Below are positions 23,946 through 31,779 of a stretch of 64,000 nt of DNA, piece by piece (positions within the stretch are counted from its first letter, which is position 1; every line of letters starts with the position of its first letter). A program made the translations under genes and the position numbers. Origin of the DNA: Halopseudomonas pachastrellae (GTDB taxonomy: Bacteria > Pseudomonadota > Gammaproteobacteria > Pseudomonadales > Pseudomonadaceae). Under the pieces are notes generated by a model. It did not search any database, was not told the DNA's origin, and was given only the letters and a program-made list of their open reading frames with translations. The stretch is taken from positions 62,001 through 126,000 of the forward strand of contig NZ_FOUD01000013.1 in the NCBI RefSeq assembly GCF_900114765.1, in the 5' to 3' direction.

Positions 23946-25805
23946 TCAGCCAGCCACCAGAAAACGTTGCTCGCGCACAAAGCGGGTCACGCCCGCGCGA
24001 TCCAGATACTCCAGTATCTGAATGGTCAGGTTGCGGCCGATGCCCGAGGCATCACGGTACTGGGCCGCATTGAAACTGCCGGACGGCGAGTCTGCCACCA
24101 ACTGCCGCGCTACCGCTACCAACCCTTCCACCTGTGATGGCAGGTAATAACGGTTCGGCGCCACCGCGATCAATTCGCCAGAGCGCTGCATGCGCAGCAA
24201 GAAGGCTTTGAGTGCTACCAGCTCCATCTCCAGCGCGGTCGCCAGCTCACCGACAATCGGCGGGCGCAGGCCGCCGGGCGCCAGTTCGGCGACAACCCGC
24301 GCCAGCAGTTCAGTATCGCCAACCTGCAACTGCGGCTGATGCTCCGGCAGGTGCAGTGCCCATGCAGTGCGCTGCAACCGTCCCTCGGTCTGCCAGCGCT
24401 GCAGCAGTTGCCGCGCCAACGGTAACGGCAGTTGCAGACAGCCGACCAAGCCGATCTGCCCTTCCCCCGGCCCAAGCAACTCGGGGTGCTGTTGGTGCCA
24501 ATCGGCCAGACGTTCGGCCAAATGCTGCCACCGTGCTTCGCAAAATGGCTCCGTAACTGCAACCCGCTGGCCAGCCGCCGCCAGTACGATCAACCCTGCA
24601 TCCGGGAGCAACTGTTCCAGCTGCTCGGCGGGCAAATTCAATTTCAGCGCCAGTTCGGGCAACGCCACCGCGCCCTGCTGCAGCGCTGCGGCCAGCACCT
24701 CACTCGGCGTGCTGGCATTCGACCAGGCAGCCAGCAGCGCCAGCCGCTGCGGCTTGCTGCGACCGCGGCCCACACCCTGCGGATCCAGTACCCGACCGCC
24801 ACCCAGCGTGGTGTTGGCCGCCGGGTCGCGAATGATAAAGCGATCTCCCCAGACCGCAGACACCGGCTGTTCCAGCATCAGCTGCGCCAGCCCCGCGGCC
24901 TCATCCAGCAGCACCACCCGTACCGAATGGATCGCCGTGCCCAGATGCAACTGCAGCACGCCACGGTGCCAATGGCTCTCGGGTAACTGCGTAAGGGAAA
25001 CATCAAGCCGATCACTGAGCGGCAACACCTGCTCGCTCAGCCAGTCGCCGCGCTGGGGCTGGTCTGCCGACACCGCGCCACCCAGATTGAGCGCACAGCG
25101 TTGTCCGGCATGAACCTCGGCAACCTCGCTGGAGGCCCGTTGCAGGCTGCGCACCCGCACCTCCTGCCCATGCAGCCAGAGCTTTTGCCCCACCTGCAGC
25201 CGACCGCTGACCAGCGTGCCGGTCACCACACAGCCCGCCCCGGCAATGCTGAAGCGGCGGTCAATCATGAAGCGCGCCGGGCTGTCGCTTGGCCGCGTCT
25301 CGCGCTGTTCCGCCTGTTGCTGCAGCGCCTGACGCAGCGCGTCAATGCCCTGCCCGCTGGTGCTGGAAACCCGCCATACGTCCGCATTGGCCCAACCCGC
25401 CTCGGCGGCCAGCGCCTGCACCTGCTCGACAACACGCTCGCGCTGAGCGTCGTCCACCAGATCACAACGGCTGATCACCAACCCCAGCTCGCGCACGCCC
25501 AGCAGTTGCAGAATTGCCAGATGCTCGCGGGTCTGCGGCATCACGCCGTCATCGGCCGCTACGACCAGCAGCGCCATATCCACCCCGGCAACCCCCGCCA
25601 GCATGGTGCCGATAAAGCGCTCGTGGCCGGGCACATCGATAAAGCCCAGCGGCTCGCCGGTCTCACTCGGCAACCAGGCAAAGCCCAGCTCGATGGTCAG
25701 CCCGCGGCGCTTTTCTTCGGCCAACCGGTCGGTATCCACTCCGGTCAGGGCATGAATCAGGGTAGTTTTGCCGTGATCAACGTGGCCGGCGGTGGCAATG
25801 ATCAC
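23946..25805 (-). CDS. selB: Selenocysteine-specific elongation factor SelB
   Basis: A 619-residue GTPase that carries Sec-tRNA to UGA codons marked by a SECIS hairpin. The EF-Tu-like part has GHVDHGKTTLIHAL (G1), DVPGHE (G3) and VISRCDLV in place of NKxD. The C-terminal 250 residues are the winged-helix array that binds the mRNA hairpin. The start is GTG at 25805, overlapping the selA stop (GTGA). It is the last protein gene of the operon. Confidence 0.95.
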   Translation of the reverse strand: MIIATAGHVDHGKTTLIHALTGVDTDRLAEEKRRGLTIELGFAWLPSETGEPLGFIDVPGHERFIGTMLAGVAGVDMALLVVAADDGVMPQTREHLAILQLLGVRELGLVISRCDLVDDAQRERVVEQVQALAAEAGWANADVWRVSSTSGQGIDALRQALQQQAEQRETRPSDSPARFMIDRRFSIAGAGCVVTGTLVSGRLQVGQKLWLHGQEVRVRSLQRASSEVAEVHAGQRCALNLGGAVSADQPQRGDWLSEQVLPLSDRLDVSLTQLPESHWHRGVLQLHLGTAIHSVRVVLLDEAAGLAQLMLEQPVSAVWGDRFIIRDPAANTTLGGGRVLDPQGVGRGRSKPQRLALLAAWSNASTPSEVLAAALQQGAVALPELALKLNLPAEQLEQLLPDAGLIVLAAAGQRVAVTEPFCEARWQHLAERLADWHQQHPELLGPGEGQIGLVGCLQLPLPLARQLLQRWQTEGRLQRTAWALHLPEHQPQLQVGDTELLARVVAELAPGGLRPPIVGELATALEMELVALKAFLLRMQRSGELIAVAPNRYYLPSQVEGLVAVARQLVADSPSGSFNAAQYRDASGIGRNLTIQILEYLDRAGVTRFVREQRFLVAG

Positions 25806-27181
25806 GCGTCGCTTTCCAGCGCGGACAGCAACACCTGCGGCTGCTCCAGACAGCGGCAGTCGAGCAGCAGGCTGTCATCGGCAATCCGTCCGATTACCGG
25901 CTGCGGCAGCCGGCGCAGTCGCTCGGCCAACTGCCGCAATGCGCGACTGCGCTCCCGCCGATTGCCGCTGGCGCTGCGCAGCCGCAGGGCCGCGCTGGGC
26001 AGAACGTCCAGCGGCAGTGACCCAGAGCCAATCTGGCTGCTGACCGCGCAAACATCTACCGCAAAGCCGTCCCCCACCCAGCGCTGCAGATCAGGCAGCA
26101 GTGCCGCGCAGGTCTGCTGAATCGACTCGGCACTGCGGGTCAGCAGGCGCAGGGTCGGCACCCGCTGCACCAGCGTGTCCGGGTCGGCGTATAACCGCAG
26201 TACCGCTTCCAGCGCTGCCAGGGTCATCTTGTCGCAGCGCAGCGCGCGCTTGAGCGGGCTTTTGCGAATGCGCGCGATCAGGTCGGCGCGTCCGGCGATG
26301 ATGCCGGCCTGCGGGCCGCCCAGCAGTTTGTCGCCGCTGAAGGTCACCACGTCCACACCTTGCGCCAGCACCTGCGCGACCACTGGCTCAGCCGGCAAAC
26401 CCAATGCCTGCAGATCAATCAGCGAGCCACTGCCCAAGTCCACCGCCAGCGGTACACTGTGCTCGCGGGCAATCGCCGCCAGCTGCGACTCATCCAGCGC
26501 CGTGCTGAAGCCATCAATGCGGTAGTTGCTGGTATGCGCCTTGAGCAGCAGCGCGGTGCGCGGACCCACGGCTTCACTGTAGTCTCGCGGGTGGGTACGG
26601 TTGGTGGCGCCAACCTCGCGCAGCTTGCAGCCGGCGCGGGCCATGATGTCCGGCAGCCGAAAAGAGCCGCCGATCTCGATCAGCTCACCGCGCGACACCA
26701 CTACCTCGCGGCGGTTTGCCAGGGCATTGAGCACCAGCAGCACGGCAGCGGCGTTGTTGTTGACCACGGTCGCGGCCTCGGCGCCGGTCAGACGACAGAT
26801 CCACTGCTCAACGTGATCGTCACGGTCGCCGCGTTGCCCGCTGACGAGATCGAACTCCAGATTGCTCGCCCCGAGCGCGACCGCGTTCATCGCCGCCACC
26901 GCTTCCGGCGGCAACGGCGCGCGGCCGAGATTGGTATGTAGCACGGTCCCGGTCAAGTTCAGCACCGGGCGCATGGAGGGCGCCAGCGTCGCCAGCAGGT
27001 GCTGACGCAGCCAATGCACCAGCGCCTCCTCGTCGCTGATCTGCCCGTCGCGCCACAGCTGCAGCGCGGCACGCACGCCATCGAGCACCAGCGCGCGGCC
27101 GTGATCGGCAATTAGTTGCTGCACCAGCGGCCAGGCCAAAACCCGGTCGACCGCTGGCGGTCGGTTGATGGCGGCCGTCAT
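25802..27181 (-). CDS. selA: L-seryl-tRNA(Sec) selenium transferase SelA
   Basis: A 459-residue PLP enzyme that converts Ser-tRNA(Sec) to Sec-tRNA(Sec) using selenophosphate. The PLP lysine is in TFSGDKLLGGPQAG; the N-terminal tRNA-binding part and NLTGTVLHTNLGRAPLP are typical. Length is normal for the family. It begins 15 bp after the selenoprotein stop and overlaps selB, so translation factors and target are co-transcribed. SelD, which makes selenophosphate, is not in the window. Confidence 0.95.
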   Translation of the reverse strand: MTAAINRPPAVDRVLAWPLVQQLIADHGRALVLDGVRAALQLWRDGQISDEEALVHWLRQHLLATLAPSMRPVLNLTGTVLHTNLGRAPLPPEAVAAMNAVALGASNLEFDLVSGQRGDRDDHVEQWICRLTGAEAATVVNNNAAAVLLVLNALANRREVVVSRGELIEIGGSFRLPDIMARAGCKLREVGATNRTHPRDYSEAVGPRTALLLKAHTSNYRIDGFSTALDESQLAAIAREHSVPLAVDLGSGSLIDLQALGLPAEPVVAQVLAQGVDVVTFSGDKLLGGPQAGIIAGRADLIARIRKSPLKRALRCDKMTLAALEAVLRLYADPDTLVQRVPTLRLLTRSAESIQQTCAALLPDLQRWVGDGFAVDVCAVSSQIGSGSLPLDVLPSAALRLRSASGNRRERSRALRQLAERLRRLPQPVIGRIADDSLLLDCRCLEQPQVLLSALESDA

Positions 27182-27196
27182 GCGGCCACCTGCGGC

Positions 27197-27727
27197 TCAG
27201 TCTGCGTCGCCGCTTTGCAGCAGGCGCAGAATCTCTGCCAGCGCGCCATCGGCAAGCGCGCGCATTTCATCGTCGGTGCGGTCCTGGATCGGATGCGGAA
27301 CAAAGACCATGGCCGGATCAAAGCCAAGGGCCTTCGACTGCAACGCCGCGGCCTGTACAAATTCACTGGAGGCAACCCCTACTCCCGGGATCTGACGCGA
27401 CTCCAGGTCTGCGATGTCATGCATACAGCACGACGTGCAAGACCCTCAGTCGGCCAGACCTTCCACCAGCAGATCCACCTCGGCGGCCATCTGCTGCTTG
27501 AGTTCAGTCGGGGCAATGCGGGTGAAGGTGGGCTTGGCGTAACGCTTCACCTCGATACCCATGTCTGCCAGTTGCTCCTCGATGCGATCGAGAAAGACGT
27601 TGCCGCGCGGCTTGGAGATATCCAGCAGCCCCACCACCTTGCCTTCAAGGCTGGTTGGACGTGCCAGACGCGCGCGTTGGGCCGGCGCGCGTTCTGCGGT
27701 CGGATCAAGCAGTATGTTGTCGGTCAT
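27197..27727 (-). CDS. UGSC selenoprotein with in-frame TGA selenocysteine
   Basis: Read through the TGA at 27446-27448, this is one 176-residue protein. Residues 1-93 end in VEGLAD, Sec is residue 94, and the frame continues as GSCTSCC-MHDIADLES to a normal TGA at 27197. The motif U-G-S-C is that of the UGSC family known from selenoproteome surveys; its function is unknown, but a redox-active Sec/Cys pair is likely. The frame is uninterrupted on both sides, the hairpin after the TGA fits a bacterial SECIS, and selA, selB and selC lie next door. Standard gene finders would split it in two. Its ATG overlaps the stop of the thioredoxin-like gene (ATGA). Confidence 0.9.
27406..27444 (-). promoter_or_regulatory. 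SECIS-like hairpin directly after the Sec codon
   Basis: Starting 12 bases after TGA, GTCGTGC, loop TGTAT, GCATGAC forms a 7-bp stem with one G-T pair (27416-27434). An outer stem GGTCT(T)GC with GCAGACC extends it. The loop G is second in the loop and 20 bases after the UGA, which fits the bacterial SECIS rule of a G among the first two loop bases at 16-37 bases. It would recruit SelB. Confidence 0.75.
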
Positions 27728-29160
27728 GACGTTACCTCACGTGTTACCGGAGACGAGCCAACCGGGCCGGAAGCGGCCCAGCCAGCGATGATGGCGGAAA
27801 ACAGGCCAGCGGTGCCGCCAGCCCGGACAATCAGCAGCCCGCCCGGACGAAACTTGGGCACCTGCTGATCCTTGAAACGTTCAGGAATACCTTCAGCAAT
27901 GCCGCCGGCGCCAGCAACCAGCTCGGCGCCTGGCGCCAACAGCAGGCGTTCCAGCTCTTCACGCAGCCGCTGCTTGGACCAACCCGCGTCGATGAACACC
28001 CGCGCATGCTCAGGCGAGACCACCAGCACCGCGTCACCGGCCATCGCCAGCTTGGCGTGGTCCACCGTGCGTAGCGACAGCGCAAAGGAGCGCGCCAGCG
28101 ATTCCGGGTCACGGGACTTCTGATCAACAATGCCCTGCACCCCCTCGCCGGGGAACAGAGTCACCGCCGAGCGCCCGGCCTCAACACCGCGCTCCTGCGC
28201 CAGCGGCAACCAATCGGCGTCTTCGGCCTCGGCGAAACAGAAACTGTACTTGCCGGGGTTACCCAGGGTAGCCCGATCAATCTCGCCGGGACGGCCGCCG
28301 CCCACGTTACGAATAATCAGCTGCAGCGCGCGGCCGATGGTGGCGTTGGCGCGGTTACCCTGCCCCAGCGCATTGACGCCCGAGTTCATGCCGATGGCGC
28401 GCGCCGCCGGCCCGTTGACCACAATCATCGGGCTGCCGAACATGGTGGTGCAGATCAGCCCGTGCAAGCCGAACTCATCACTCAGCGCTGCCTCCAGCGC
28501 CGCCAGCAGCACCGGCATGTATTCCGGCTTGCAGCCGGCCAGCACCGCGTTGATGGCGACTTTTTCGACGGTCACCGGCACCAGGTCCGGCGGCATCAAC
28601 CCGACCACGTCGTCGGGCTGGCGGCTGGTGCCCTTGAGCATGCGCAGCACCCGCACCGGCGTCGGCGGCACCACCGGCAGACCGTCGCTCCAGCCACGCT
28701 CGAAGCAGGCCTCCATCGGGTCTTCGGCGCTACCCATGTCGATCTCGCGCGACTGCAGGCGGATATTGCCAAAGGCCAGCTCAAGCTCTTCGCTGACGCC
28801 CGGCTCCAGTGTCTTCGAGCCGCAGCCCGGCCGCATCACCGGCAGCGCTTCGCCCAGCTCGGCCAAACCGGTCAGCTGGCGCCAGTCTTCCTTGTGCCAG
28901 CCGTAGGTACGCTCGACCTCTTGGCCGGTCTCAACGCGAATCAGCGTGGGTACAAACTCAATGCCGAGATGGAAGGAGTGTTCGAGGCTCTGATCGTAGA
29001 GAGCAGACGGCAGCTCAGCGGCGTAGTCTGCCGAGTCCTGGGCGTAAACCGTCAGTGGACCGGCCTGGGCGATCTCGGCCAACAGCGGCTCGACCAGTCG
29101 GCAAGTTGGACAATCAGCCTTGGCGACGACAATCAGGCCGTCGGGAAGTGCGGGTTTCAT
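27724..29160 (-). CDS. Thioredoxin-like (CPTC) protein fused to the UGSC partner domain
   Basis: A 478-residue protein in two parts. Residues 1-110 look like a thioredoxin fold with a CPTC active site (AKADCPTCRLV, 17-20) and a cis-Pro-type segment FVPTLIRV. From about residue 130 a larger conserved domain follows, starting WSDGLPVVPPTPVRV and containing TVEKVAINAVLAGCKPEYMP and GMNSGVNALGQGNRANATIG. That domain also accompanies UGSC proteins in other bacteria as far as I recall, with no known activity. I use ATG 29160; the ORF maximum is at 29190. It heads the selenoprotein operon and likely reduces, or is reduced by, the Sec protein. The substrate is unknown. Confidence 0.7.
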   Translation of the reverse strand: MKPALPDGLIVVAKADCPTCRLVEPLLAEIAQAGPLTVYAQDSADYAAELPSALYDQSLEHSFHLGIEFVPTLIRVETGQEVERTYGWHKEDWRQLTGLAELGEALPVMRPGCGSKTLEPGVSEELELAFGNIRLQSREIDMGSAEDPMEACFERGWSDGLPVVPPTPVRVLRMLKGTSRQPDDVVGLMPPDLVPVTVEKVAINAVLAGCKPEYMPVLLAALEAALSDEFGLHGLICTTMFGSPMIVVNGPAARAIGMNSGVNALGQGNRANATIGRALQLIIRNVGGGRPGEIDRATLGNPGKYSFCFAEAEDADWLPLAQERGVEAGRSAVTLFPGEGVQGIVDQKSRDPESLARSFALSLRTVDHAKLAMAGDAVLVVSPEHARVFIDAGWSKQRLREELERLLLAPGAELVAGAGGIAEGIPERFKDQQVPKFRPGGLLIVRAGGTAGLFSAIIAGWAASGPVGSSPVTREVTS

Positions 29161-29287: not shown

Positions 29288-30310
29288 CTACCAGCGGGCG
29301 TAGTGATCTTCCACCAGCCCCCAGGCATCAGTAATCTGAAGCGTCTCGCCCGGCAGCCGCAGCACCCCGCTGTACTGCCCAAAATGCTGCTTGAAGTTGG
29401 ATGCCAGCAGCAGCGCGTTGAGCTTTTCTTGCCGACTACCGGCCGGTGCAAACTGCAGATCGATCTGGCCATCGGCCGAGCGCAGCTGCCAGGGTGAGAG
29501 TGGCGCGCTGCGATCAAACTGAAAGTCGACCATATCGACCTTGATCAGTTGATCGTCCAGCCACAGGCCGTTCTCGGTAAACCCGGTTTCATTAACGCCT
29601 GCCGCCAGGTTAAAGCCCAGCCGCCGACCATCTGGCAAACGGCAAGACAAACTGCCCCAGTTCCAGAACGTCTCCCGCCGCATAAAACCCGCCGTCCAAT
29701 CCACCGCCGCCAGCGCGTCGATCTGGCGCAAATCAAACTGCTGCCCGTGCCAGCTGACACTACCAGTACAGCAACGCGCCGCCGTCTTGCGAGTAAACAC
29801 CCAGCCGGCATAACCGGCGCGGGTGCAGACGGACAGCGGCTGCTGGCTCGGCGCCTCATTAATCCGCGCGTCAATCCACGTACCACCGGACAGCTCAACC
29901 CTTAGATGGCGTACACCGGGTTCGCTACCCGCATCCACACTGATGCGATTCGCCCCTTTGGCAAACAGCGCCGCTCCGTCGCCCGGACGCGGGTCGATGT
30001 AGGTATTGCGCGCCAGCGGCTGCAGAAAGCTGAACTCGTCAAAGCGCCGGGTGCGCGGATCGAACAGGTACACGAAGGCATTGCTGACCAGCTTGAGATC
30101 GACAATCGCCACGCCAACGATCAGCTCCGGGCTCAGCAGGCTGATGAACTGAAACTGATTGCAGCCAAAGCGTTTGGCCAACTGCGAGCGCGGCTTGTCC
30201 ATCACCGTGCGCAGGTCAAAATCGAGGTAGTTGATCTCCTCAACCCCGTCGGGGAAGAGGCCATAGCTGGGCTGGCCTGCGGCGTTGATCAGGCGGGGTA
30301 AGGCGGGCAT
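29288..30310 (-). CDS. DUF2804 family protein
   Basis: A 340-residue soluble protein. It has the DUF2804 pattern: a start PRLINAAGQPSYGLFPDGVEEINYLDFDL, a middle WTAGFMRRETFWNWGSLS and an end WGLVEDHYARW. Family members look like lipocalin-type beta proteins, and the role is unknown. GAGAG precedes the ATG. It is 127 bp upstream of the selenoprotein operon, same strand, but probably separate. Confidence 0.75.
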   Translation of the reverse strand: MPALPRLINAAGQPSYGLFPDGVEEINYLDFDLRTVMDKPRSQLAKRFGCNQFQFISLLSPELIVGVAIVDLKLVSNAFVYLFDPRTRRFDEFSFLQPLARNTYIDPRPGDGAALFAKGANRISVDAGSEPGVRHLRVELSGGTWIDARINEAPSQQPLSVCTRAGYAGWVFTRKTAARCCTGSVSWHGQQFDLRQIDALAAVDWTAGFMRRETFWNWGSLSCRLPDGRRLGFNLAAGVNETGFTENGLWLDDQLIKVDMVDFQFDRSAPLSPWQLRSADGQIDLQFAPAGSRQEKLNALLLASNFKQHFGQYSGVLRLPGETLQITDAWGLVEDHYARW

Positions 30311-30477: not shown

Positions 30478-31779
30478 CACTACTGTCCGGAATAAATTCA
30501 TAGCGGCAGAGCACCCTGCATCCTGGTCCATATCAGCTGACGCCGTTGCCTTCGTTGCAGCAGTTCGTGATCCGTCTCTTTGCGCTGAAACAAGCCTGCT
30601 CTTAGCTCGGTCAGGCAGCAGCGCAACGAGCTTGCTGCTGCTGACCCCGCATGCTGTATCTGCAGCAGCAGATAGGTAATCAAGGCAACAAATATCTGAA
30701 TCCTGACTGCATTTTCACTGCGGCCAAGAAACGTGCGTACGCTCAGGTTTTGCTTCAGCCACTTGAAGAACAACTCGATGCCCCAGCGTGCCTTATAGTT
30801 GGCAGCAATCACGTTGGCTGGCGACACCAGGTCGTTCGTGGCTATGACTAGCGCCGGTCTGCCATCCTCTCGTGCCACCAGGACCCTGCGCAAAGGCGTG
30901 CCGTGGTATTGGTTGATGCGCTTGCCGCCAGGTCGGCGGTTCTTGAAGCTAACCAGGTGGTCGCCCAGTACTTGCGGGTGCTCTGAGCTGTCCTGCGTGT
31001 TGTCAGCCAATACCTGAACACCCGCATTGCTCTTCAGGCGCGTGACAAAGTAGGCCCCCGCGCAGTGAATCTGATACCACCAGTTGTAGTCGCAGTAGCC
31101 CTTGTCGAAGACATAGGTTTGACCTGCCTCAATGGGCGTATTCCGGCCAACGTCGATATCGTTGATGTTGGGCGCGCTAATAAGGCTCTGCACCGGTGTG
31201 TTGCTGCCCGATGCCATGAGCACATGCACCTTCAACCCTTGCGTGCGGTGGTTGTGGTTGTCTCTTGTCCAGTCATCGTAGCCAAGCCCCTTTAGAGGAA
31301 TAGGCGTGGAGTCCAGCAGGTAGAGAAACTCGCCCACCTCCTGCCGCAGGTGACGACTGACCTTGGCCATCAGCAGTTGGCATATGCGCTCAAACAGTGC
31401 TGCCGGGCGCTTCTGGTTGGCATCTGCCAGGGTCGAACGACGAATGCAGCGTGTGCCCAGGTGGTAATGGTGGATCTTCTGACTGTTAAAGCCCGTCTCT
31501 ATTTCCCTGAGGCTGGAGGCGCAAGCAATCTGGGCATAGATCAGAGCGATCATTTGGTCCCAGGATTTAAAGCCTTTGCAGTGCTTGTCTGCATCGAGTT
31601 CGCGCACCTGCTTGTCGAAAACAGGGCGCGGCAAACCTTTCAAAAGATCGGCAAATCGGGTATTTGTGTACACGTTGTAGTCACTGAGTTGTTGAGTCGC
31701 ATCAACGGGTTCTACCCTTCAAACTCAGTGGCTGCAATCCCTCCAGAACTCTCCCCCAAATTTATTCCGGACAGTAGTG
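30478..31779. mobile_element. IS4-family insertion sequence (1302 bp), intact
   Basis: Both ends carry a perfect 21-bp inverted repeat beginning CACTACTGTCCGG. The direct target duplication CGCCTTCGCG flanks it at 30468-30477 and 31780-31789. The ends, the 10-bp duplication and one DDE transposase gene fit an IS4-family element. The target is a REP-like palindrome, and removing the IS and one copy of the duplication restores it. Perfect ends suggest a recent and possibly still mobile insertion. Confidence 0.92.
30498..31673 (-). CDS. IS4-family DDE transposase
   Basis: A 391-residue transposase with an N-terminal DUF4372-type region (TRFADLLKGLPRP) and the RNase-H-like core: first Asp in LLDSTPIPL, second in YVFDKGYCDY, Glu in ARWGIELFFKWLKQ with the YREK-like context of IS4 enzymes. 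The frame is complete and its stop lies at the inner edge of the terminal repeat. It catalyses cut-and-paste movement of the surrounding element. Confidence 0.93.
   Translation of the reverse strand: MYTNTRFADLLKGLPRPVFDKQVRELDADKHCKGFKSWDQMIALIYAQIACASSLREIETGFNSQKIHHYHLGTRCIRRSTLADANQKRPAALFERICQLLMAKVSRHLRQEVGEFLYLLDSTPIPLKGLGYDDWTRDNHNHRTQGLKVHVLMASGSNTPVQSLISAPNINDIDVGRNTPIEAGQTYVFDKGYCDYNWWYQIHCAGAYFVTRLKSNAGVQVLADNTQDSSEHPQVLGDHLVSFKNRRPGGKRINQYHGTPLRRVLVAREDGRPALVIATNDLVSPANVIAANYKARWGIELFFKWLKQNLSVRTFLGRSENAVRIQIFVALITYLLLQIQHAGSAAASSLRCCLTELRAGLFQRKETDHELLQRRQRRQLIWTRMQGALPL

Follow-up and report, generated by a model that had tools for sequence, protein, structure and literature searches.

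What does a bacterium gain from a small operon that carries one selenocysteine (Sec) protein together with its own genes for Sec insertion? The question is raised by 64,000 nucleotides of Halopseudomonas pachastrellae DNA (contig NZ_FOUD01000013.1, positions 62,001 to 126,000; hereafter the window), in which an operon lying entirely on the minus strand encodes, in this order, a partner protein with a thioredoxin (Trx) domain, a selenoprotein of the UGSC family, selA, selB and tRNA-Sec. An earlier note, made from the sequence alone, had picked out this operon; it held that selA, selB and selC follow UGSC directly on the same strand, and the matches to TIGR00474, TIGR00475 and RF01852 bear this out (Table 1). 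The reading we favour, while giving it somewhat less than an even chance, is that the operon is a self-contained cassette for one selenoenzyme, in which UGSC and its partner would form a two-subunit reductase.

The UGSC frame consists of 93 codons, a TGA, the residues GSCTSCC and 75 further residues, 176 in all; it is open across the TGA on translation, and an ordinary gene caller breaks it there, as the list of open reading frames (ORFs) showed and as the earlier note had expected. Such a split would suit a genuine stop codon, in which case the locus would make a pair of short proteins or be a gene in decay. However, all 27 UGSC copies of the genus have TGA in the Sec column as their one in-frame TGA, and they do not end there but continue as conserved coding sequence, the synonymous/nonsynonymous pair counts being 1.84 before the TGA, 2.37 after it and 6.26 in the first 16 codons. 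Among the loci fetched with the partner (L038-L117; L-numbers denote fetched loci and G-numbers genomes, G000 being that of the window) the site could be seen in 75, with TGA in 72, TAG in two and Cys in one. The TAG cases were Blastococcus and Geodermatophilus (L054 7284-7286 and L099 7284-7286), and both genomes carry a tRNA-Sec with the matching CTA anticodon (RF01852, 64.2 and 65.1 bits; labelled Pyl by ARAGORN); UAG-coded Sec in UGSC of the Geodermatophilaceae is mentioned in the portion of PMC5330540 available to us, citing Mukai 2016. Homologues with Cys in place of Sec, for which the earlier note had advised a search, were found in L008 (genome G404) and L109 (Elioraea rosea), and tRNA-Sec was detected in neither genome, the best RF01852 matches being tRNA-Ser by ARAGORN.

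The codons that follow the TGA are also strongly biased. For the 71 loci with UGA and a partner, with the codons of the partners as background (1673 Ser), Ser at Sec+7 was AGT in 60/60 (6.9% of the background Ser codons), Cys at the same position was TGT in 10/10 (28% in the partners; TGT also in 27/27 of the genus copies) with GGT once, and Ser at Sec+5 was TCG in 65/66 (28.5% in the partners). A 7-bp hairpin with GU in its loop was aligned over 81 distinct sequences (alignment A4: 81 of 88 distinct windows around the selenocysteine insertion sequence, SECIS, and the window's own); 94.0% of cells were paired, against 93.1% in shuffles, and the covariation was slight, with two pairs changed on both sides (6/500 shuffles were as high, and 79/500 for the score). 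The argument for the hairpin consequently rests on codon bias and not on covariation. We regard the hairpin directly after the UGA as a SECIS-like element of predicted function that would force the use of these rare codons. The retention of TGA with coding conservation behind it, the TAG relatives with their tRNA, the Cys homologues and the forced codons strongly support decoding of the TGA as Sec, as the earlier note had proposed, and make a genuine stop extremely improbable. In one relative, L003 (581-2209), UGSC is fused to the partner core and the motif is USSC with an in-frame TGA; tRNA-Sec was not found in its 97%-complete genome despite that TGA. In another, L007 (1513-1800), the motif is CGSC, a different in-frame TGA occurs elsewhere, the gene is split by frame and the partner core is open; the RF01852 search of this genome gave a tRNA-Ser-type match only, and the sequence reads as a decayed copy of UGSC.

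The read-through product matched PF24696 (E 2.2e-41, 142.3 bits, cut-off 25) and NF041046 (E 3.2e-43, 147.3 bits, cut-off 125) over nearly its full length, and both profiles place it in the known UGSC family. The earlier note had stated that no reaction was on record for either protein. As to the reaction, this stands for the literature searched, the available parts of PMC2398784, PMC13188914, PMC5330540 and PMC9312934 giving no reaction, no relation to GrdB and no partner sequence for UGSC; it needs amending in that the family to which UGSC belongs has a name and that the Sec half of the protein resembles GrdB (below). The portion of PMC2398784 at hand knows the family from marine metagenomes and reports UGSC fused to 'Unknown_1', possibly the core of the partner described here. 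The family is uncommon: it was present in 3/274 genomes of the class and 5/398 of the phylum (the window's own genome counted in both). Of 58 relatives searched 28 were positive, 27 of them among the 37 genomes of the genus, own genome included; in the 21 relatives of the order outside the genus UGSC and selB occurred together in G695.

Conserved adjacency of the partner, which the earlier note had suggested checking, was evident both in the genus and beyond. A pattern scan for the partner returned at least 592 stretches, at least 588 of which encode relatives, and the best 80 by match were kept, which is not a random sample. Of these 80 loci 76 also hold UGSC; in 71 of the 76 it is at most 253 bases downstream of the partner on the same strand, and in the remaining five it is divergent (L062, L076) or further off (L063, L096, L117). 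For three of the four loci without UGSC (L084, L106, L088) the genome has the gene elsewhere, and for L110 it has none. In the genus the partner was found in 26/27 UGSC-positive genomes and 0/10 others, the UGSC locus of the one positive genome in which it was not seen (G671) being cut to 1976 bases. In G690 (L026), next to an intact UGSC, the partner comes in two frames that overlap, the result of a frameshift or an assembly error. The commonest arrangement places the Trx-core protein upstream of UGSC; a core without Trx stands upstream in L005 and downstream in L002, L007 and L018, L009 (3-1489) has two cores in tandem after one UGSC, and L096 has a separate Trx-like gene (by eye).

For the partner the ORF list gives 488 residues from an upstream TTG, and an ATG gives 478; the latter start was preferred because it fits the thioredoxin start of most relatives. 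The CPTC site that the earlier note had seen sits in a thioredoxin domain by both profile (PDB thioredoxin match, E 1.7e-4) and fold (VIA Z 9.6, rmsd 2.4, 85 aligned). A CxTC motif occurs in the first 60 residues of 67/80 relatives (44 CPTC, 12 CATC, 6 CETC, 3 CHTC, 1 CDTC and 1 CQTC); most of the 13 that lack an early CxTC are shortened by the chosen start. For the remainder of the protein the libraries gave no family: the whole partner had no Pfam or NCBIfam match at E 0.001, a profile of the cores had no PDB sequence match at E 1, and when 10 aligned partners were scanned at E up to 1 thioredoxin-type matches appeared in single members (best E 0.00069) and all others were likewise in single members at E 0.049 or worse. 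The core is a large family for which we found no Pfam or NCBIfam model, its novelty being at the level of sequence. It has cysteines that are nearly invariant, and Asp and Arg residues that are fully so (alignments A1 and A3, the latter 50 of the 80 partner references picked by eye for diversity).

These properties might suggest that the core is itself the enzyme and UGSC a dedicated activator or a subunit for redox or metal delivery, since the core is the larger and strongly conserved, has the residues just described, and occurs as two tandem copies after one UGSC in L009. A weak resemblance to class I fumarase also came out of Foldseek (prob 0.69 and 0.80). The TM was about 0.2, however, and sequence gave no support, since hhalign with one sequence, E. 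coli FumA, reached prob 0.4 and 0.2; we rejected fumarase as a candidate. The nearly invariant cysteines are lost in the fused L003, and we consider the core-as-enzyme explanation distinctly unlikely.

A structural model of the window's UGSC was obtained with AlphaFold 2 (AF2) from 55 sequences (alignment A2: 54 of 72 UGSC references of at least 150 bits, picked by eye for diversity, and the window protein), with a mean pLDDT of 92.8. Five strands (31-36, 59-64, 86-92, 115-120 and 139-143) alternate with helices, and Sec94 comes directly after the third strand, followed by helix 95-110. Flavodoxin-like proteins headed the Foldseek results (E 3e-5, with TM no higher than about 0.5), and the best 50 of 1924 PDB matches comprised flavodoxin-like and other Rossmann folds, with no thioredoxin among the matches listed. 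VIA gave common Rossmann folds with Z up to 11.4, with flavodoxin-, CheY- and PurE-like proteins in the fold lists. GrdB was absent from those lists, which carries no information on its relation to UGSC. Chain H of 8s7v, from a methyl-coenzyme M reductase (MCR) activation complex, scored Z 11.1 (rmsd 3.8, 135 aligned); a designed protein scored equally well and other Rossmann folds about one Z lower, and the match was set aside. UGSC is thus modelled as Rossmann/flavodoxin-like, which makes the Trx-like fold assigned to it in the parts of PMC2398784 and PMC13188914 available to us less probable, absence from a list of matches carrying no weight by itself.

The modelled fold bears on a further explanation, in which UGSC is a thioredoxin- or peroxiredoxin-like antioxidant and the partner its reductant, a thiol/peroxide redox pair with no carbon substrate. 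The UxxC motif, the Trx domain fused in the partner and a katG-like gene (by eye) that adjoins the operon would all agree with this. However, the model places Sec at a helix start in a Rossmann-like fold with no thioredoxin among those best 50 matches, the profile matches point to GrdB, and the conserved 340-residue core would not obviously be needed by a simple antioxidant. We consider such a pair unlikely, if a serious possibility.

Relationship to GrdB, the selenoprotein B of glycine reductase, emerged from profile comparisons in several ways. Among the 55 UGSC members 45 matched TIGR01917 (glycine reductase selenoprotein B; best E 8.4e-6), 41 NF040794 (sarcosine GrdF; best 1.2e-5), 23 TIGR01918 and 15 GrdH, whereas unrelated NCBIfam families matched only one or two members each. 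The window's own UGSC matched TIGR01917 with residues 77-151 on profile positions 330-399 (E 0.0094); its 14.9 bits miss the cut-off of 602.2, and no other GrdB/PrdB model was listed for it. In the reverse direction UGSC_fam was matched by 2/5 PrdB-like selenoproteins (E 0.0055 and 0.049) and Pfam UGSC by 1/5 (E 0.094). Alignment by hhalign of 61 UGSC proteins with 34 PF07355 proteins (27 with TGA at the motif and seven with Cys) placed Sec on Sec with prob 83.8, score 43.9 and pairwise E 7.9e-6; the score was 37.7 with both motifs masked. Among the controls, 40 column shuffles reached no more than 23.3, the reversed comparison 15.2 and a set of 14 unrelated families no more than 18.9. A likeness to DUF116 was weak, 16/55 members matching PF01976 with a best E of 0.001 (window 27200-27727). 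As an observation apart, PF07355 (GrdB/PrdB-like) matches were found in 36/337 sampled genomes of one class; TGA stands at the motif (UPVC, UPAC, UPLC and others) in 27/29 of the loci L143-L171, some of which adjoin CoA-transferase-like or acyl-CoA-dehydrogenase-like genes.

In D-proline reductase the Sec of PrdB is proposed to attack beside a leaving group, after which an Se-S bond forms and a thiol carrier reduces it. The combination in this operon of a UxxC motif, a thioredoxin and a conserved partner core, taken with that chemistry, suggests a self-recharging reductase. We infer that UGSC and its partner would form a complex, with the substrate bound by the core. In the manner suggested for PrdB, the selenolate of UGSC would attack an electrophilic carbon (or heteroatom) beside a leaving group; Cys97 of the UxxC motif (invariant in A2) would close an Se-S bond and so release the reduced product, and the CPTC site of the fused thioredoxin would reduce that bond for the next turn. 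Sequence and model support the Sec coding, the pairing, the Trx domain and the distant GrdB homology on which this scheme draws. Some divergent relatives lie near acyl-CoA dehydrogenase-, enoyl-CoA hydratase- and thiolase-like genes, which hints at the catabolism of organic acids.

Several observations weigh against the reductase reading. All the UGSC-GrdB matches are far below the family cut-offs, and the 45/55 do not represent 45 independent matches because the UGSC members are kin to one another; an earlier hhalign comparison with five GrdB-like sequences only gave prob 12.7, the Pfam GRDB model was not among the 25 families listed, of 28 in all, for UGSC, and of six further UGSC proteins the Cys form in L008 alone matched a GrdB model (betaine GrdH, E 0.0013). 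As 10 partner cores matched no GrdE or PrdA model (Pfam and NCBIfam, E up to 1) and no partner core was present in the GrdB-like loci L138-L171, the partner half of the analogy is without sequence support. Some relatives also lack the fused Trx domain, and the neighbouring genes of the 80 loci, named by eye, share no single pathway. Leaving aside UGSC itself, the partner and antisense frames, the neighbour clusters were metallo-beta-lactamase-like in 10 loci (opposite strand) and selB, acyl-CoA-dehydrogenase-like and thiolase-like in nine each, the rest being scattered. Genes in GC-rich loci, where antisense frames had been picked, were called anew with a GC-frame score. The neighbours do not decide between antioxidant, activator and reductase.

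The earlier note had also argued that the Sec-insertion genes serve UGSC, no formate dehydrogenase (FDH) being near. In the 37 genomes of the genus selB was over the cut-off in all 27 that have UGSC and in G676, and absent from the other nine, a co-occurrence (27/27 versus 0 of 9) that supports the argument; in G676 (79% complete) the contig breaks off 582 bases beyond selB, while still in selA, and UGSC may lie past the break. The link is looser outside the genus, as G703 and G710 among the order relatives have selB and no UGSC. The lack of FDH extends to the whole of G000, in which none of four TIGR01553 matches was over the cut-off. FDH-alpha over the cut-off and with a TGA occurred in 3/37 genus genomes (G672, G677 and G679), each of which has two selB genes over the cut-off; G664 and G665 have FDH-alpha with neither TGA nor selB. 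Of these three genomes the two SelBs were compared in G677. One of its selB genes is beside FDH and one beside UGSC (L123 5482-7350 and L124 3244-5091), as also in G672 and G679; in G677 UGSC and its selB have no selA between them, and tRNA-Sec lies in the FDH region, with none in the UGSC region. The UGSC-linked SelB of G677 shares 57-60% identity with the UGSC-linked SelBs of L038 and L041 and 39% with the cell's own FDH-linked SelB, and in a tree of 15 SelBs it grouped with the former at 100/100 and not with the latter. The idea that UGSC-linked SelBs form one lineage was not borne out by this tree, which has an unresolved fork joining the FDH-linked SelB of G677, L042, a group of G657, L040 and G676, and the group of the window; the window's SelB shares 41% identity with the FDH-linked SelB of G677 and 39% with the SelB beside UGSC in G657. 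In the wider set of 80 loci, many of them cut by contig ends, selA was seen in 10, selB in nine and tRNA-Sec in seven, and by these counts the cassette form, UGSC with its own Sec genes, is a minority. A cell with two SelBs, each next to a selenoprotein of its own, would make it possible to test whether a SelB is adapted to the SECIS that it serves.

The features of the operon are collected in Table 1. Upstream of it on the same strand lies a gene for a DUF2804 protein (PF10974, E 8.1e-58; window 29288-30310), and immediately upstream of that gene a transposase-like frame (by eye; 30498-31673).

Table 1. Features of the UGSC operon, in coordinates of the window.
Feature	Position	Strand	Basis or remark
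Partner, 478 residues	27724..29160	minus	N-terminal thioredoxin domain with CPTC and core of about 340 residues
Thioredoxin domain, partner residues 1-100, C17-P-T-C20	28861..29160	minus	AF2 pLDDT 93.8
Partner core, residues 140-478	27727..28743	minus	alignments A1 and A3
UGSC-family selenoprotein, 176 residues, Sec = residue 94	27197..27727	minus	PF24696, NF041046; AF2 pLDDT 92.8
In-frame TGA read as Sec	27446..27448	minus	genus conservation; TAG and Cys relatives
SECIS-like hairpin (predicted), 7 bp, apical GU	27416..27434	minus	pairing and codon bias
selA	25802..27181	minus	TIGR00474, E 3.8e-171
selB	23946..25805	minus	TIGR00475, E 1.3e-119; 4-bp overlap with selA
selC, tRNA-Sec, TCA anticodon	23836..23930	minus	ARAGORN; RF01852, 74.7 bits

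Taken together, these data allow a tentative and broader proposal, to which we attach a limited probability: a new two-component reductase of Proteobacteria, Actinomycetota and other phyla, in which a freed Sec domain of GrdB/PrdB type and a substrate domain of a new family fused to thioredoxin would cleave an organic substrate reductively. In some lineages it would travel as a portable cassette that brings its own SelB, and a single cell could then keep two SelBs for two selenoproteins. Compared with the accounts of the UGSC family in PMC2398784, PMC13188914, PMC5330540 and PMC9312934, whose available parts describe neither a Trx-core partner nor a second SelB, the pairing with that partner, the GrdB-like Sec half with its Rossmann model, and the two SelBs in three genomes of the genus appear to be new. 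The conserved partner and the relation to the Sec domain of glycine reductase give UGSC a specific and testable enzyme hypothesis.

Of the known systems, thioredoxin resembles residues 1-100 of the partner in its CxxC motif and fold, and differs in that the partner's domain is fused to a large core. GrdB and PrdB (TIGR01917, NF040794, PF07355, TIGR04483) have their UxxC motif at the same place as UGSC, within a distantly homologous half, and in both the motif is followed by a strand of the form ...GI..V... and an H/F-P-[IL] motif. Unlike them, UGSC lacks the N-terminal part of GrdB, and its partner has no match to the pyruvoyl subunit GrdE/PrdA. Because it also falls short of the family cut-offs, UGSC is, as judged from these alignments, not a member of the GrdB family but a distant relative of its Sec half.
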